41,612 nt of DNA from Thermoplasmatota archaeon (GTDB taxonomy: Archaea > Thermoplasmatota > Thermoplasmata > Thermoplasmatales > Thermoplasmataceae). A program made the translations under genes and the position numbers. Where the stretch lies: NCBI GenBank assembly GCA_023484805.1, contig JAMDAM010000010.1, forward strand, positions 1-41,612, given 5' to 3'. Positions 3,378 through 25,698 of the stretch are shown here, piece after piece (position 1 is the stretch's first letter; the number at the start of each line of letters is the position of its first letter). The notes beneath the pieces were generated by a model. It was not told the DNA's origin. It worked only from the letters and a program-made list of their open reading frames with translations, and searched no databases.

Positions 3378-3430
3378 AAAACTTAGACGCTATATATACA
3401 TTTAAACTTTTTCTATATATGTTATATACA

Positions 3431-8944: not shown

Positions 8945-9958
8945 TCATGTAAGCGTGCGGTCCCTCTGCTGCTGATCCTCGGCTCTCTGGTCGTATGGAT
9001 ACGTTACATCCATCCTGCTGGTGTTGTTTATCTCACTCATCTGCTCCTCTGTAAGTTTCCAGCCGACAGACCCTAGGTTATCTTCGAGTTGTTTGACGTT
9101 CCTGGCCCCTATGATCGGCGCCGTCACAGCGGGATTTGAAATAACCCAGTTAAGTGCAACCTGTGCCATGGTCTTTCCAGTTTCTCCCGAAATTCTGGAG
9201 AGTAATGAAAGAATTCTTGATGTTCTTTCATTTTCTAAACCCCTGTAATATTCAGGCGTACTGGAATCCCCGATTCGCGTTCCCTTTATGGCTCTGGATA
9301 TCCCGTCTGCATACTTGCCTGTCAGTACACCACCGGCAAGGGGGCTCCACGGCATCACAGCAATGTTCTCCGCCAGAGCCATTGGGAGTATCTCGAACTC
9401 CGTTGCCCTGACGATGACGTTGTAGTGAGGCTGGATACTTACAGGCTCGTGCCACCCTCTGCTCCTGCAGAGCTGCAGAGCCTTCTCAAATTGCCAGGCC
9501 CTGTAGTTGCTCACTCCGATATACCTGATCAGCCCTTCCTCCACAAGCGAGTTCAGGGTTCCGAAAGTTTCCTCTAAAGGAGTCAGCGGATCCCACGCAT
9601 GTACCTGAAGGATGTCAATGTAGTCAGTAGAAAGCCTCTTCAGGCTTGCATTTACGGCTGAAATGAGATGCTTCCTCGACAGGCCGACGCCATTTGGATG
9701 TTTTTCGGTCCGGAACCTTGCCTTGGTTGCAATCACTACGCTCTCCCTGTCTCTTCCCTTGAGCCACCTGCCGATTATCTCCTCTGATCTCCCTTCAGAG
9801 TACACATCCGCGGTGTCAATGAAAATTCCCCCATTCCCGGTGAACCTGTCAAGAATTTCATGGCTGGTGCCTTCATCGGCCTGCCAGCCGAAGGTCATGG
9901 TTCCCAGACAAAGCTCGCTCACCAGAAGTCCAGTTTTTCCGAATTTCTTGACTTGCAT
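8945..9958 (-). CDS. Aldo/keto reductase
   Basis: A 337-residue NADPH-dependent oxidoreductase with the (beta/alpha)8 fold. The catalytic tetrad is visible: Asp48 and Tyr53 in FIDTADVYSEGRSEE, Lys79 in VIATKARF, and His120 in ILQVHAWDPL. The C-terminal cofactor region contains APIIGARNVKQLEDNLGSVG. It belongs to the AKR branch related to YghZ/YajO and aryl-alcohol-dehydrogenase-like proteins that reduce aldehydes. The length is normal. It is divergent from the formate dehydrogenase genes; a minus-strand TTTAAATG/TTTTTTATC stretch about 26 nt upstream would give a leaderless mRNA. The natural substrate is unknown. Confidence 0.92.
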   Translation of the reverse strand: MQVKKFGKTGLLVSELCLGTMTFGWQADEGTSHEILDRFTGNGGIFIDTADVYSEGRSEEIIGRWLKGRDRESVVIATKARFRTEKHPNGVGLSRKHLISAVNASLKRLSTDYIDILQVHAWDPLTPLEETFGTLNSLVEEGLIRYIGVSNYRAWQFEKALQLCRSRGWHEPVSIQPHYNVIVRATEFEILPMALAENIAVMPWSPLAGGVLTGKYADGISRAIKGTRIGDSSTPEYYRGLENERTSRILSLLSRISGETGKTMAQVALNWVISNPAVTAPIIGARNVKQLEDNLGSVGWKLTEEQMSEINNTSRMDVTYPYDQRAEDQQQRDRTLT

Positions 9959-19666: not shown

Positions 19667-20044
19667 ATGAGATACGGTATTTCCATGGCGTTCCTCGCCA
19701 GCCTTCTGCTATCATTTGCCCTTTCTTTCACGAATTACTGGTACCTGATATTCATTCCTGAAATTATAGTGGGACTGTTCTTCGTGGCGCTGATCAGGCA
19801 TGCTCTACTGGTGGGCATGGGGGCTGCTCTTGGTACTGCACTGCAGATCCTGTCCTATGAGGGTTCTTTCAGGCTGTCAGAGTCAGCGCTGGTAGCTGGT
19901 GTTGCTGGAATTCCGGGCGGATCAGCCATCTTCCTTGTCTTCACCCTGATAATCGTGTTCGTCATAGCTTCTCTCGGAACCGTTATAGGTATGTCATTGA
20001 ACCCAGTGATCAAAAAAAGGGAGAAAAATAATAACCCTGGTTAG
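19667..20044 (+). CDS. Small integral membrane protein (unknown)
   Basis: A 125-residue protein with four hydrophobic segments (residues about 3-20, 24-41, 44-60 and 88-112) and a short basic tail KKREKNNNPG. Its ATG follows the penicillin acylase TAG with no gap, so the two are cotranscribed and probably coupled. I do not recognise a family. It could anchor or assist the secreted hydrolase, but nothing in the sequence proves that. Its stop codon overlaps the stop of the convergent carrier gene in the tetranucleotide TTAG (20041-20044). Confidence 0.75.
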   Translation: MRYGISMAFLASLLLSFALSFTNYWYLIFIPEIIVGLFFVALIRHALLVGMGAALGTALQILSYEGSFRLSESALVAGVAGIPGGSAIFLVFTLIIVFVIASLGTVIGMSLNPVIKKREKNNNPG

Positions 20045-20619
20045 AGCGGAAGGCTCATACCAAGGGCAAATGTGGTTACTGCTGCAAACATCAGGTACAT
20101 CAGCCATGTGCCCGTGACGAGGTGCCAGAAACCCTTTATCCTTGTCCACTGGGCAGATTTCAACAGGCTGGCCGGTATGTCAGATATATAAACGAACGCA
20201 AGCAGTACAAACAGTACAGCTACCGGGATGTCCGACGCCTTGAAGAAGACAAAGGCACCGGTAATGGAAATCTACAGGAATGCCACTGCCATGTATCCGT
20301 CCACGGTTGTGTCTCCACCGTAGTAGCGGTTTATTCCCAGCGCAAACCAGTGTACGCCGTAAGCCGTGAAGGCAGTCGCGGCCATGTAAAGAACCGGGCT
20401 GGCCTGGAATGCGTTGAACACCGTGAGTCCAAGGAAGAGATATGTACCTGTTAGGAATTGCATGAATCCTGGCATCCATATGCCCCATTGTCCCAGGACT
20501 TTGCTGACCTTTTCCGTCGTTTCCTTCGGTATCCTGAAGAACTCCCAGCCTCCATAAACAAAGTATCCAGTACCGAGGCCGAAGAATCCTATTGCCAGTG
20601 GTGGTAAAGCTCCAGTCAT
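20041..20619 (-). pseudogene. SatP/YaaH (GPR1/FUN34)-like carrier gene with one in-frame amber codon
   Basis: A six-helix membrane protein of the acetate/succinate uptake type. From ATG 20619 the frame reads MTGALPPLAIGFFGLGTGYF, YGGWEFFR, then MPGFMQFLTGTYLFLGLTVF and AYGVHWFALG, until a TAG at 20272-20274. The same frame continues without interruption: ISITGAFVFFKASDIPVAVL, then FVYISDIPASLLK, and FWHLVTGTWLMYLMF, ending GMSLPL and TAA at 20041-20043. Total length is about 192 residues, normal for the family. A TATA (TTATATAT, about 20645-20652, minus strand) predicts a leaderless start. The amber codon could be a recent nonsense mutation, readthrough or a sequence error. The family call is moderate. 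Confidence 0.7.
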
Positions 20620-20707: not shown

Positions 20708-21541
20708 TCAGGCTGGATGCTGGGCTATCCTTTCTGGATGGGCATAAACGTTGAACCTGTCTTTCCTCACAAAGCATGCCAGGGTGATGCCGAAAGTTTC
20801 TGCAACATCAATCGCAAGGCTGGAAGGTGCAGAAATGGATGACACAATGGGGAAGCCGGCCATGGCAGCTTTCTGAAGTATTTCAAAGCCACCCCTGCCG
20901 CTGATCTGGAGCATGAAAGGCCCTTTGTCAAGCAAGTTGCGTGAAAAAAGATATCCGATGCACTTATCGACGGCGTTATGCCTTCCGACATCCTCCATTG
21001 TCACAATATGGCTACCCTTTATGTCAAATATCCCGGCCGCATGTATTCCTCCGGTAATCTCAAAGAGGTCCTGGCTTTCCATCATTTTTTCAGGCAGCGA
21101 GAGTATTATGCTTGCGTCCACAGCAGCTGATCCTCTGACTATTCCCTTCCCACGGATGAAAATTTCGTTGATGCTGCTCTTCCCGCAGACTCCGCAGCTA
21201 GAGCTCATGAAGAAATTCCTGCTGTTAAGTTTAACCAAGGGCAATCCATCACTAAGGGTTACTGTGACAGCGTTGCTGCCACGACTGCATTCGACGTGAT
21301 CGACATCTTTCGGCGACTTGATGAAACCCTCCGTCAGGAGGAAACCGAGAGCAAGTTCCCTGTCGTTCACAGGCGTCCTCATGGTTACCGCGATGCTCTG
21401 GGTTATTCCATCCTGGAGGATGCGTATCTCCAGAGGTTCTTCAGTCACGACTGAGTCTGAATCTTCTGTGCAGGAGCCCTGGCGCGAGAATCGTGACACT
21501 CTGGTCAGGATGTATCCATGGATGTCATCAGTCCTGATCAT
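20708..21541 (-). CDS. fdhD: Formate dehydrogenase accessory sulfurtransferase FdhD
   Basis: FdhD transfers sulfur from a cysteine desulfurase to the Mo cofactor and delivers it to formate dehydrogenase, without which the enzyme is inactive. The 277-residue protein has the TEEPLEIRI start region, the NDRELALGFLLTEG block, the sulfur-carrying pair Cys116/Cys119 in SSSCGVCG, the GGIHAAGIFD strand, EDVGRHNAVDKCIG, and the SGRGGFEILQKAAMAGFPIV and SSISAPSSLAIDVAE end. It is the last gene of the minus-strand operon and overlaps the DUF1641 gene by 14 nt. It may serve both formate dehydrogenases of this window. Confidence 0.95.
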   Translation of the reverse strand: MIRTDDIHGYILTRVSRFSRQGSCTEDSDSVVTEEPLEIRILQDGITQSIAVTMRTPVNDRELALGFLLTEGFIKSPKDVDHVECSRGSNAVTVTLSDGLPLVKLNSRNFFMSSSCGVCGKSSINEIFIRGKGIVRGSAAVDASIILSLPEKMMESQDLFEITGGIHAAGIFDIKGSHIVTMEDVGRHNAVDKCIGYLFSRNLLDKGPFMLQISGRGGFEILQKAAMAGFPIVSSISAPSSLAIDVAETFGITLACFVRKDRFNVYAHPERIAQHPA

Positions 21542-22025
21542 GTTTGTGATCCCCAGTCTTCCTTGTGAAACCCTTCATTGTGCCTATGAGTATCCGCATT
21601 CCAGAACTTACGTCAGGGTCCTTGATCAATGAGTTAAGTGAAAGAAGACCCATGGGCTTTCCCGGATGCTCCCGGTTCCCCTTGGTCATTTCGTCAGCTG
21701 CGTTCTCCATGAAGCTACTGACCATTTCTGGTGGAAGCCTTGAAAGAAGAGTGTATACTGCGGATACGTTTCTGATGAAATTCTCCATACGTCCGTCTGA
21801 AAGCTCCTCTGTTATTGTAGACAGGGCATCCTGGTAATTCTCAAGCAACGACGAAGCTATTGAAAGTATCCCGCTGTCACTAAGCGCCTTCACGACCTGC
21901 ATCAGTTCAATCATGGATCTGCCGTACTTTCCTGACATGAATTCCATTGCATCTGAGCTGGTTACCGTGCTTTTCTCTTCTTCAATCACCCTGGAAATCG
22001 ATTCCGACATCTCAGTTCCCCCCAT
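21528..22025 (-). CDS. DUF1641 family protein (formate dehydrogenase-associated)
   Basis: A 165-residue helical protein. The core, MIELMQVVKALSDSGILSIA followed by LLENYQDALSTITEELSD and later KPMGLLSLNSLIKDPDVSSG, MRILIGTMKG, fits DUF1641. In Bacillus the homologue (YjgD) sits beside the YjgC-type formate dehydrogenase, and the same pairing is found here: the ATG lies inside the last codons of the alpha subunit (14-nt overlap) and the stop lies inside fdhD. It may be an assembly or electron-transfer partner; biochemical function is not established. There are no cysteines in the conserved core. Confidence 0.85.
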   Translation of the reverse strand: MGGTEMSESISRVIEEEKSTVTSSDAMEFMSGKYGRSMIELMQVVKALSDSGILSIASSLLENYQDALSTITEELSDGRMENFIRNVSAVYTLLSRLPPEMVSSFMENAADEMTKGNREHPGKPMGLLSLNSLIKDPDVSSGMRILIGTMKGFTRKTGDHKHDQD

Positions 22026-24960
22026 CGCTGACCATTGGCTGGTAGTCTTTTCTCTTCCACTTCTCCTCTATCTTTACGCCAACCTGCGGCCTGGGATGCC
22101 CATACCTGGGATTGGTAATTGGCAGAGGTATGTGCGGCTTTACTCCGGCAATCTTCTCCATCTTAACCGGCAGTTCCTTGTATGCGGGCGTGTGGGCGGT
22201 GGGATCCATCAGCCTGCTTGTGAGAATATTTATGCCCTCCTCACCCGGGTCGTTCATGGGCATGTACATCTCCCTCCCTGTTACACGTTCAGTCACGAGT
22301 ACCCTGGTTTTAAGGTGCCCCCATCTCGACGTGAGCCTCACCTCATCGCCGTTCTCTATCAGCCTTTCCTTAGCGAGTTCAGGTGAAATCTCTACGAAGG
22401 TGTTCGGCACTTTCTCCCTGATTCCCGGGCTCCTGTATGTTTCATTTCCCTCATGAAAATGCTCCAGCAGCCTCCCATTGTTAAGATGCAGGTCATACTC
22501 GCTGTCCACGACAAGCGGTGGGTGGTATTCCAGCGGATAGAATCTCGCCTTGCCGTCTGGGAAGTGGAACTCGCTCTCATAAAGGAGCGGAGCATCCCTG
22601 CCATCCTGGTCCACAGGCCACTGCTGGCTTGAAAACCCTACCAGTTTGTCGTAAGACACTCCCGCAAAAATCGGCGAAAGTCTTGCGGCCTCCTGCATTA
22701 TCTCGGAGGGGTGCCTGTAATTCCAGTCGTAGCCCAACTGCTTCGCAACCATCTGTATTATCTCCCAGTCAGCCTTTGCATTCCCGACTGGATCCATAAC
22801 CTTGTATATCCTCTGGATGCGCCTCTCCGTGTTTGTAAACGTGCCCTCTTTCTCGAGGCTTACCGCTGCTGGAAGCACAATATCGGCGTGCTTTGCGGTT
22901 TCGGAGAGGAATGCATCCTGAACCACAAGGAAATCAAGCTTGTCCAGCATTTCCCTTATGTAGTTCGTAGAAGACCCGGTTGTGACAAGCTCCTCCCCGA
23001 TAATGTACATGCTCCTGATCTTCCCGTTGGCAATCCCCTCGATGCAGGTGTTATTGTCCACCCCGGGAGAGGCTGGAATCTTGCATTTCCATTCTTCCTC
23101 AAAGCGTCTTCTTGCATTGTCATCAGATACTTTCTGGTATCCCGGGAGGTAGGCATTCATGGCCCCGAAATCGCTGGCTCCCTGAACATTATTATGTCCC
23201 CTGAGCGGATATGCACCGGTTCCTGGTCTTCCATAGTTCCCAGTAACCAGCAGGAGGTTTGATATGGACGTGGAAGTGTCGCTTCCTGCCTGGTGCTGGG
23301 TCACTCCCATTGCCCACAGGATGCACATACTGCTGACGCCGTGTATGGTTTCAGCCACGCTCACAAGTGTATCCTTGCCAATACCAGTAACTCTTTCTGC
23401 GTAATCGAGTGTGAAGGGTTCCAGGCTCTTCCTGTAATTCTCGAAGTCAGTGGTCCTGCCGGCAATGAATTTTTTGTCTTCCCATCCCTGATCAATTATG
23501 TATTTAGTGACTGCTGAGAGCCAGACGAGATCGGTTCCTGGGTTAGGGTGAAGGAAGATATCTGCCCTTTCGGCCATTTCGTGCTTCCTCAGATCAGACA
23601 CGATCAGCTTCTGGTGGTTGAGCTTGTGTGCCCTCTTCACCCGTGTTGCAATGACAGGGTGGGATTCTGCGGTGTTTGTACCTACTGCGATTATGAGGTC
23701 TGACCGGTATATGTCGCTTATGGAACCAGAATCGCCTCCGTAGCCGACTGTGCGCCAGAGACCGGTCGTAGCCGGAGCCTGGCAGAATCTGGAGCTGTTG
23801 TCCACGTTGTTAGTGCCGAAAACCTGCCTCGAAAGCTTCTGCATCAGGAAGGACTCCTCATTTGTTCCCTTAGAGGATGCGATGAATTCTATTGCGTCCC
23901 CTCCGTATTTCTCCTTTACATTTGAAAGGCCATTGGCCACGGCCTTTATTGCCTCATCCCATGAAGCTGTCCTAAAATGATCGCCTTCCCTTATCAGCGG
24001 TTTTGTAAGCCTGTCGCTGCTGTTCACAAAATCCCATCCGAATTTGCCCTTTATGCACGTAGAGATTCCGTTTGCAGGTGATTCAGGCATTGGCTGAACC
24101 TTGAGGATATCCCTGCCCTTAGTCCATATCTCGAAGGAACATCCGACACCACAGTATGTGCATACTGTCTTTGTCTTCCTGATCTGGGACTTCCGCATTG
24201 CAGATTCAACATTGCTGATAGCCATTACAGGTTTCATGCCCACGGTAGGCTCAAGGTCCTTCACAAGATCTATCATCCTCTTCTTGGTCTTCTCCCTTAT
24301 ACCGGTGAAGAAGCCGGCTTTGCCGATCATGGTCTTCTCCATGAGCGCATTGACGGGGCAGACTGTTACACAGTGACCGCATGATACGCAGGAAGAATCG
24401 TTTATTGGTACGTTGTTGTCCCACACAACCCTGGGCCGGTCAAGCGTCCAGTCTATGGACAGTGTCTCGTTGACCTCCACATCCTGGCACGCCTCCACAC
24501 ACCTGCCGCAGAGTATGCACTGGTTAGGGTCGTACACATAGAACGGATTGCTGTCATCGACTGGATACGGTTTAGGCTCAAAGGGGTATTTCTGCTGGTC
24601 TATTCCCAGGTCGTGCACGGTGTTGTGAAGGGCGCAATCACCGTTATTGTTCTCGCATACAGTGCAGTACATATCATGATTATGCAGGATCCTGTTCGTC
24701 GCCTCTATCTGGAGATCAATAACGTCCCTGCTCCGTGTATCTATAATCATCTCACCTTTGACAGGCTCTGTACATGACCTGGCAACCCTGCCGTCGACCT
24801 TCACCAGGCAGGTGTCACAGCTGCCTATGGCCCCAAGATTTGGCTGGAAACAGATATGAGGTATATCTATCCCGCTGTCAATCAGCGCTTCAAGAATCGT
24901 CGTTCTTTCCGTCGTCAGTCGGGTTCCATTTACCATCAGTGTTTTCAAGCTATCATTCAT
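22012..24960 (-). CDS. fdhF: Formate dehydrogenase alpha subunit, YjgC/YrhE-like branch
   Basis: A 982-residue Mo-bis-MGD enzyme with an N-terminal NuoG-like Fe-S region. The [2Fe-2S] ligands are Cys37, Cys48, Cys51 and Cys63; the His/Cys3 cluster has HNHDMYC with Cys99, Cys102 and Cys109; two [4Fe-4S] motifs follow (CILCGRCVEAC and CVSCGHCVTVC); then CTYCGVGC opens the Mo domain. The metal ligand is Cys393 in SRFCQAP, with Gln where the other enzyme has His. The Arg loop reads PLRGHNNVQG. These differences match the Bacillus YjgC branch. A SD-like GGTG (24967-24970) precedes the ATG, with a leader of about 40 nt, unlike most genes here. First gene of an operon with DUF1641 and fdhD. The electron acceptor is unknown. 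Confidence 0.93.
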   Translation of the reverse strand: MNDSLKTLMVNGTRLTTERTTILEALIDSGIDIPHICFQPNLGAIGSCDTCLVKVDGRVARSCTEPVKGEMIIDTRSRDVIDLQIEATNRILHNHDMYCTVCENNNGDCALHNTVHDLGIDQQKYPFEPKPYPVDDSNPFYVYDPNQCILCGRCVEACQDVEVNETLSIDWTLDRPRVVWDNNVPINDSSCVSCGHCVTVCPVNALMEKTMIGKAGFFTGIREKTKKRMIDLVKDLEPTVGMKPVMAISNVESAMRKSQIRKTKTVCTYCGVGCSFEIWTKGRDILKVQPMPESPANGISTCIKGKFGWDFVNSSDRLTKPLIREGDHFRTASWDEAIKAVANGLSNVKEKYGGDAIEFIASSKGTNEESFLMQKLSRQVFGTNNVDNSSRFCQAPATTGLWRTVGYGGDSGSISDIYRSDLIIAVGTNTAESHPVIATRVKRAHKLNHQKLIVSDLRKHEMAERADIFLHPNPGTDLVWLSAVTKYIIDQGWEDKKFIAGRTTDFENYRKSLEPFTLDYAERVTGIGKDTLVSVAETIHGVSSMCILWAMGVTQHQAGSDTSTSISNLLLVTGNYGRPGTGAYPLRGHNNVQGASDFGAMNAYLPGYQKVSDDNARRRFEEEWKCKIPASPGVDNNTCIEGIANGKIRSMYIIGEELVTTGSSTNYIREMLDKLDFLVVQDAFLSETAKHADIVLPAAVSLEKEGTFTNTERRIQRIYKVMDPVGNAKADWEIIQMVAKQLGYDWNYRHPSEIMQEAARLSPIFAGVSYDKLVGFSSQQWPVDQDGRDAPLLYESEFHFPDGKARFYPLEYHPPLVVDSEYDLHLNNGRLLEHFHEGNETYRSPGIREKVPNTFVEISPELAKERLIENGDEVRLTSRWGHLKTRVLVTERVTGREMYMPMNDPGEEGINILTSRLMDPTAHTPAYKELPVKMEKIAGVKPHIPLPITNPRYGHPRPQVGVKIEEKWKRKDYQPMVSDGGN

Positions 24961-25030: not shown

Positions 25031-25111
25031 TAATTGAATATCATATTTATATCTTGGCAATCAGGAGCTGCCAGCAAATGAATTTATATCTGTACAATAA
25101 CTTATAAGCAT

Positions 25112-25698
25112 GTGTTAGACCCCACAAACGCCAGGTCTGGAAAAGATATTTCACCGGAAAGGAAGAATGAATTGATAGAAATATTGAAGCAACGCTTTGA
25201 TGAGAACATGATCAGGCATAGCGGCATTATCTGGGAAAAATCCAGGGAAGGCTGGAGGCAAGTGCAGGAAAAATATGGTCACTGAATGAAATGGAGATAA
25301 CAGGAGGCGAGCCAGACCTTGTAGGTCATGATGAAATTACTGATAAATACGTTTTCTACGACTGTTCCCTCGTGAGCCCTGGGAACAGAAGGATTATCTG
25401 TTATGACGGCAAGGGGCAGGAGACAAGGGAGAGGCAGGGCATTCATCCCGGTGGGAACGCCATCGATATGGCTGCAAGCATGGGTATTGAAATCCTGTCG
25501 GAAGATCAGTACAGGCAGCTTCAGAAACTTGGAACTTTCGACACAAAGACTTCCAGCTGGCTGAAAACACCGCCTGATATAAGGAAGCTAGGAGGAGCTA
25601 CTTTTGCTGATAGGCGTTACGGAACAGTATTCGTGTACCATAACGGTGCATCCTCTTTTTATGGTGGAAGGGGGTTTCGCGGATTCCTGCAGGTCTGA
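25112..25698 (+). pseudogene. DUF4256 family gene with a one-base frameshift
   Basis: Two parts of one DUF4256 protein lie in different frames. From GTG 25112 the first reads LIEILKQRFDENMIRHSGII then WEK. From 25240 the second reads IQGRLEASAGKIWSLNEMEI then TGGEPDLVGHDEITDKYVFYD (in separate blocks), later NAIDMAASMGIEILSEDQYR, TKTSSWLKTPPDIRKLGG and the C-terminal RRYGTVFVYHNGASSFYGG. The break falls in the A5 run at 25236-25240; a sixth A would restore one frame of about 195 residues, the usual length. Function of the family is not known. The second half alone (ATG 25291) would lack about 60 residues. It may be a pseudogene, a programmed shift, or a homopolymer sequence error. Confidence 0.75.

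Follow-up and report, generated by a model that had tools for sequence, protein, structure and literature searches.

Recurrent young lesions in a probable formate channel gene beside intact formate dehydrogenase genes in thermoacidophilic archaea

In the stretch of DNA analysed here (the window: 41,612 nt, contig JAMDAM010000010.1 of a member of the Thermoplasmataceae, genome G000 below), a gene for a membrane protein of predicted SatP fold, referred to as the carrier, is interrupted by a single in-frame amber codon, and its orthologues in related species are repeatedly broken in other ways. We favour, at about two chances in three, the reading that a gene for a probable formate or formic acid channel, part of a formate dehydrogenase cluster, has recently and repeatedly lost its function, the channel being either unneeded or a burden where the pH is very low. 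Taken alone, the TAG appears from sequence comparison to be an ordinary young nonsense allele; the point of interest is the recurrence, which, like the fold and the tie to formate dehydrogenase, lies beyond the view taken in an earlier note on this DNA.

The interrupted gene and the age of its stop codon

The carrier gene lies on the minus strand at 20041..20619 and spans 192 codons: an ATG-initiated run of 115 sense codons in all, the TAG at codon 116 (20274-20272; "cta" at 20272..20274 on the plus strand), 76 further codons, and a natural TAA at 20041..20043. This TAA overlaps the TAG (20042-20044) of a convergent plus-strand gene in the sequence TTAG; the latter gene (19667..20044) encodes a 125-aa membrane protein without a Pfam match, and is itself unbroken, with a conserved counterpart in the sister genome. 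The earlier note had described the carrier gene accurately, without its strand, as split by one in-frame TAG with coding preserved to either side, about 76 codons after it and a natural TAA overlapping the convergent stop. Its remark that no other disruption is visible is right for the carrier gene, where we found no stop or frameshift other than the codon-116 TAG, and wrong for the rest of the window: compared with the sister, a DUF4256 gene (25100-25698, plus strand) has lost one base near 25240, which shifts its frame, and the open reading frame listed for it, from 25291, lacks approximately the first 65 residues. Among 24 genes compared between the window and the sister, these two are the only interrupted ones.

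Read through the TAG, the frame aligns along its whole length of 192 residues, at 98% identity, with the protein of the sister genome (G001), which has no interruption. Codon 116 is TGG, an ordinary Trp, in the sister and in 20 of the 20 family copies compared, and the TAG is therefore a one-base nonsense change (TGG to TAG), the W-to-TAG change that had been proposed as the simplest. It truncates the protein inside the fourth of its six helices (residues 104-127). Relatives have a sense codon at this site and are open to the same end, as in a unitary pseudogene or nonsense allele; the sister copy, open over 192 codons, has no natural end there.

The G000 and G001 copies differ by 42 synonymous and 4 nonsynonymous changes, apart from the change of W116 to a stop (dN/dS 0.023), which bears out the earlier suggestion of a very recent nonsense mutation. 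Had the stop lasted the whole branch, some 85-90 amino acid changes would be expected; at most 4 are seen, and its age is therefore probably no more than about 10% of that of the branch since the split from the sister. A split gene with a restart after the TAG was considered and rejected: the candidate start codons downstream are codons 153, 174, 177, and 188, too late for the second half, making a half-protein from such a restart unlikely.

Lesions among relatives and in control genes

The survey covered 77 genomes of the family, one per species, 30 of which have the carrier or a remnant; setting aside G010 as an error-rich draft leaves 29 reliable copies. Seven are broken, all by different lesions (TAG, TAA, TGA, or a frameshift). 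Besides TAG116 in the window genome, with TGG elsewhere, these are TAA60 in G026 (TAT or TAC in relatives), TAA20 in G008 (TAT), TGA95 in G077 (GGA), TAG158 in G100 (TGG), TGA172 in G036 (TGG; a contig end is close by), and a one-base insertion near codon 66 in G030, in a short A run. The stops are each one base away from the codon of near relatives, and most lesioned copies have one fresh lesion in a gene that is otherwise perfect. The G026 genome (1,584,804 bp) is a single contig, and the G030 contig (L041) has a stated depth of 120x; the carrier of G091 (genome 1,564,906 bp) is intact. In an eighth genome (G002, of the same genus and also a single contig), about 25 recognisable carrier codons are left at the syntenic site (L153 near 9770-9850), beside an intact FdhD gene. 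This remnant was scored as unbroken, so that the tests below are conservative by one. FdhA and FdhD are intact in all eight genomes with a broken or remnant carrier.

The lesions are spread over the tree: parsimony requires 6 changes for the 7 lesioned rows, yet no two lesions are alike, and the only close tree neighbours among lesioned copies, those of G000 and the long-branched G100, differ in theirs. The G100 copy (L150 7215-7778, L102) falls near the window's and the sister's copies despite coming from a different genus, and is a decaying pseudogene, possibly acquired by transfer. Phase variation was rejected, since the lesions are scattered and lie outside repeats, with the exception of the short A run in G030. 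A search for plasmids gave no match. In a genome scan of bacterial and other homologues, about 4 of 56 were broken or partial.

Six genes served as controls; they were chosen by the analyst rather than drawn at random, we looked by eye for scaffold gaps and for natural stops at the C-terminus, and the denominators are our own counts from the tables, without contig-end fragments and G010. No lesions were found in FdhD (0/44), FdhA (0/41), FMN_bind_2 (0/48), a DUF998 membrane protein of 195 aa (0/44), or a 284-aa neighbour (0/25), and one in the AceTr paralogue of the same fold (1/40). The difference between the carrier (7/29) and the pooled controls (1/242) has p ~6e-7, and that between the carrier and the same-fold paralogue by itself has p 0.008.

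Several apparent lesions were discarded. Those in FdhD of G001 (L145, about 9490-9600) and FdhA of G093 (L160, about 3415-3425) are scaffold gaps, runs of N with duplicated ends that mimic a disruption, and stops in the DUF998 control were either natural C-terminal ones or disappeared on re-alignment. A TGA inside FdhA of several relatives, considered as selenocysteine, proved to be the normal end of the gene, at query position 980. Two drafts, G010 (Thermogymnomonas; L152) and L035 (Thermocladium modestius), were excluded because of an assembly artefact: they show systematic runs of seven G or C, shorter in relatives, by which genes are disrupted or altered.

Fold, neighbouring genes, and proposed cargo

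No curated family model matches the carrier protein above its cut-off. The window protein reaches 12.2 of the 50 bits required by AceTr_1 and has no match to PF01184, which matches just 2 of 52 homologues (best E 0.019), and a sequence search of the PDB with the family profile found nothing. AlphaFold predicts six helices for the unbroken sister protein (pLDDT 94.2), and Foldseek aligns the model with the SatP entries 5zug, 5ys8, and 5ys3 (E 3e-4 to 8e-4, TM 0.71-0.77, 16-20% identity), the sole PDB match with E < 0.001; the next are the H. pylori urea channel at 0.07 and another at 0.88. The predicted model thus has the six-helix SatP fold. The sequence NPAPLGL is the N-terminal signature of the AceTr or GPR1-FUN34-YaaH family (PF01184, NF038013); where it would be expected, the carrier family has LPPLA[IV]GFFGLGTGY. 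By its modelled structure, then, the carrier is a divergent SatP-fold channel outside the current family models. About half of the family genomes also have a true PF01184 gene, at a different locus. Several genomes of a Thermoplasma-like genus, g6 (L158/G091, L159/G092, L151/G008), have this acetate channel gene no more than about 8 kb away from the carrier.

Directly upstream of the carrier, and likewise on the minus strand, are intact genes for the formate dehydrogenase accessory protein FdhD (20708..21541; FdhD-NarQ, E 3e-65), a DUF1641 protein of the formate dehydrogenase cluster (21528..22025), and the formate dehydrogenase alpha subunit FdhA (22012..24960; 982 aa; Molybdopterin, E 2e-68). 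In nearly all the genomes that have the carrier, where the contig allows, at most a few kb separate it from FdhA or FdhD. The carrier is present in 29 of the 46 family genomes with FdhA and in 1 of the 31 without (p 4e-8). From this neighbourhood and co-occurrence we infer that the carrier serves the dehydrogenase encoded next to it by moving formate, formic acid, or another small carboxylate of that kind. Transporters of the FocA type (FNT, PF01226), a family to which the carrier itself does not belong, are absent from all 77 genomes.

Sulfolobaceae, Thermocladium, Vulcanisaeta, Halarchaeum, and many bacteria have homologues (approximately 42-73% identity); to judge by names, these are largely acid-soil or acidophilic taxa. 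Several of the homologues adjoin FdhA or FdhD, though not most, and many of the bacterial ones are not beside fdh genes.

Explanations for the losses

Formic acid has a pKa of about 3.7. In strong acid it would cross the membrane unaided and acidify the cytosol; a channel supplying formate or formic acid to the adjacent formate dehydrogenase may therefore be unneeded, and at times a liability, at the lowest pH but of use at higher pH or when formate is scarce. Null alleles of such a gene would therefore arise and spread repeatedly without lasting, while the intact form would be retained over longer times. Diffusion of formic acid into acidophiles, with acidification and uncoupling, has been reported (PMC8024496). 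The selective cause of the loss, including any benefit from it, is something that we infer, and there is no simple relation of loss to growth pH in what could be tested.

Several readings concern the window's TAG itself. A base or assembly error in the G000 MAG, in an organism that itself has TGG, is improbable. Some room is left for it by the completeness of the MAG (70.67%), by a codon-116 call known from the assembly alone, and by the second single-base lesion, in DUF4256, in the same window; it must be set against the low number of interrupted genes (2 among the 24 compared with the sister), the seven different carrier lesions with almost none in the controls, and the occurrence of lesions in the single-contig G026 and in the 120x contig of G030. 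A read error at the G000 site cannot, moreover, account for the recurrent pattern. Two further readings, both raised in the earlier note, start from a lone in-frame TAG with coding intact on both sides. Genetic recoding, as pyrrolysine or otherwise, can be practically dismissed: in the G000 genome, 70.67% complete, the search for PylS found a C-terminal model match below cut-off (39 vs 178 bits), with similar weak matches in 12 control genomes; none of the 33 tRNA genes recovered has a CTA anticodon, two intron-bearing ones being, as read by eye, Tyr(GTA) and Met(CAT); and a search of the same genome for pylS, pylT, or a suppressor tRNA-CUA thus came up empty. The homologous residue is an ordinary Trp, orthologues are broken otherwise, and TAG is an ordinary stop in G000, terminating 10 of the 29 window genes, with no reassignment found. 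Low-level amber readthrough, with some full-length channel being made and the stop acting as a dose control, is very improbable, if less so than recoding. It would suit the pristine frame downstream, and bacteria are reported often to have in-frame stops followed by conserved sequence (PMC7918605), but past a lesion this young, conservation says nothing either way. Neither an amber suppressor tRNA nor PylS was seen in the 70% complete genome, TAG is, as noted, a regular terminator in the window, the lesions of relatives sit at other codons and include TAA, TGA, and a frameshift, and two copies (G100 and G002) have decayed further.

The main rival to selective loss is plain relaxed selection, in which the carrier is dispensable and decays at random with no gain from its loss. 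We consider it unlikely as a full account, while clearly the strongest of the alternatives; relaxed selection without benefit could yield part of the pattern. The approximately 16 FdhA-bearing genomes without any carrier speak for it, as do the decayed copies of G100 and G002. Against it, constraint on the carrier copies is strong (pairwise dN/dS 0.01-0.12), and most of the broken ones have one fresh lesion and are perfect elsewhere, unlike a gene long dispensable.

A broader formulation of recurrent loss, which we put forward tentatively and would not yet bet on, is a loss-and-keep regime in thermoacidophilic archaea, in which nulls of a formate-linked SatP-fold channel may be favoured or tolerated for a while and then replaced, leaving about a quarter of species representatives knocked out, mostly freshly, beside an intact formate dehydrogenase. 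Such fresh breakage of a strongly conserved gene points to opposing selective pressures specific to strong acid, in which weak acids enter the cell unaided. A function as a formate or formic acid channel is also proposed here for a widespread SatP-fold family unnamed by Pfam and NCBIfam, in archaea without a FocA-type transporter. Both claims are testable in cultured Thermoplasma species, one with an apparently intact carrier and one with an apparently broken one.

SatP is a hexameric channel that transports acetate and succinate. Like members of its family (SatP/AceTr, GPR1/FUN34/YaaH; PF01184, NF038013; 5zug, 5ys3, 5ys8), the carrier has six transmembrane helices and about 190 aa; it differs in its low identity in structural alignment (16-20%), in having no PF01184 or AceTr_1 match over the cut-off, and in sitting with formate dehydrogenase, the true PF01184 paralogue being a separate gene. 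With the FocA/FNT formate channels (PF01226) it would share the role of moving formate beside formate metabolism; it belongs to another family, and none of the 77 genomes has an FNT gene. As for the lesions, in-frame stops on the scale of population polymorphism are short-lived in bacteria (Belinky et al., 2021; PMC7918605), and those described here resemble them in being young and apparently short-lived nonsense alleles in a constrained gene. That survey was bacterial and genome-wide, whereas here a single channel gene of acidophilic archaea is hit repeatedly and its partners are spared.
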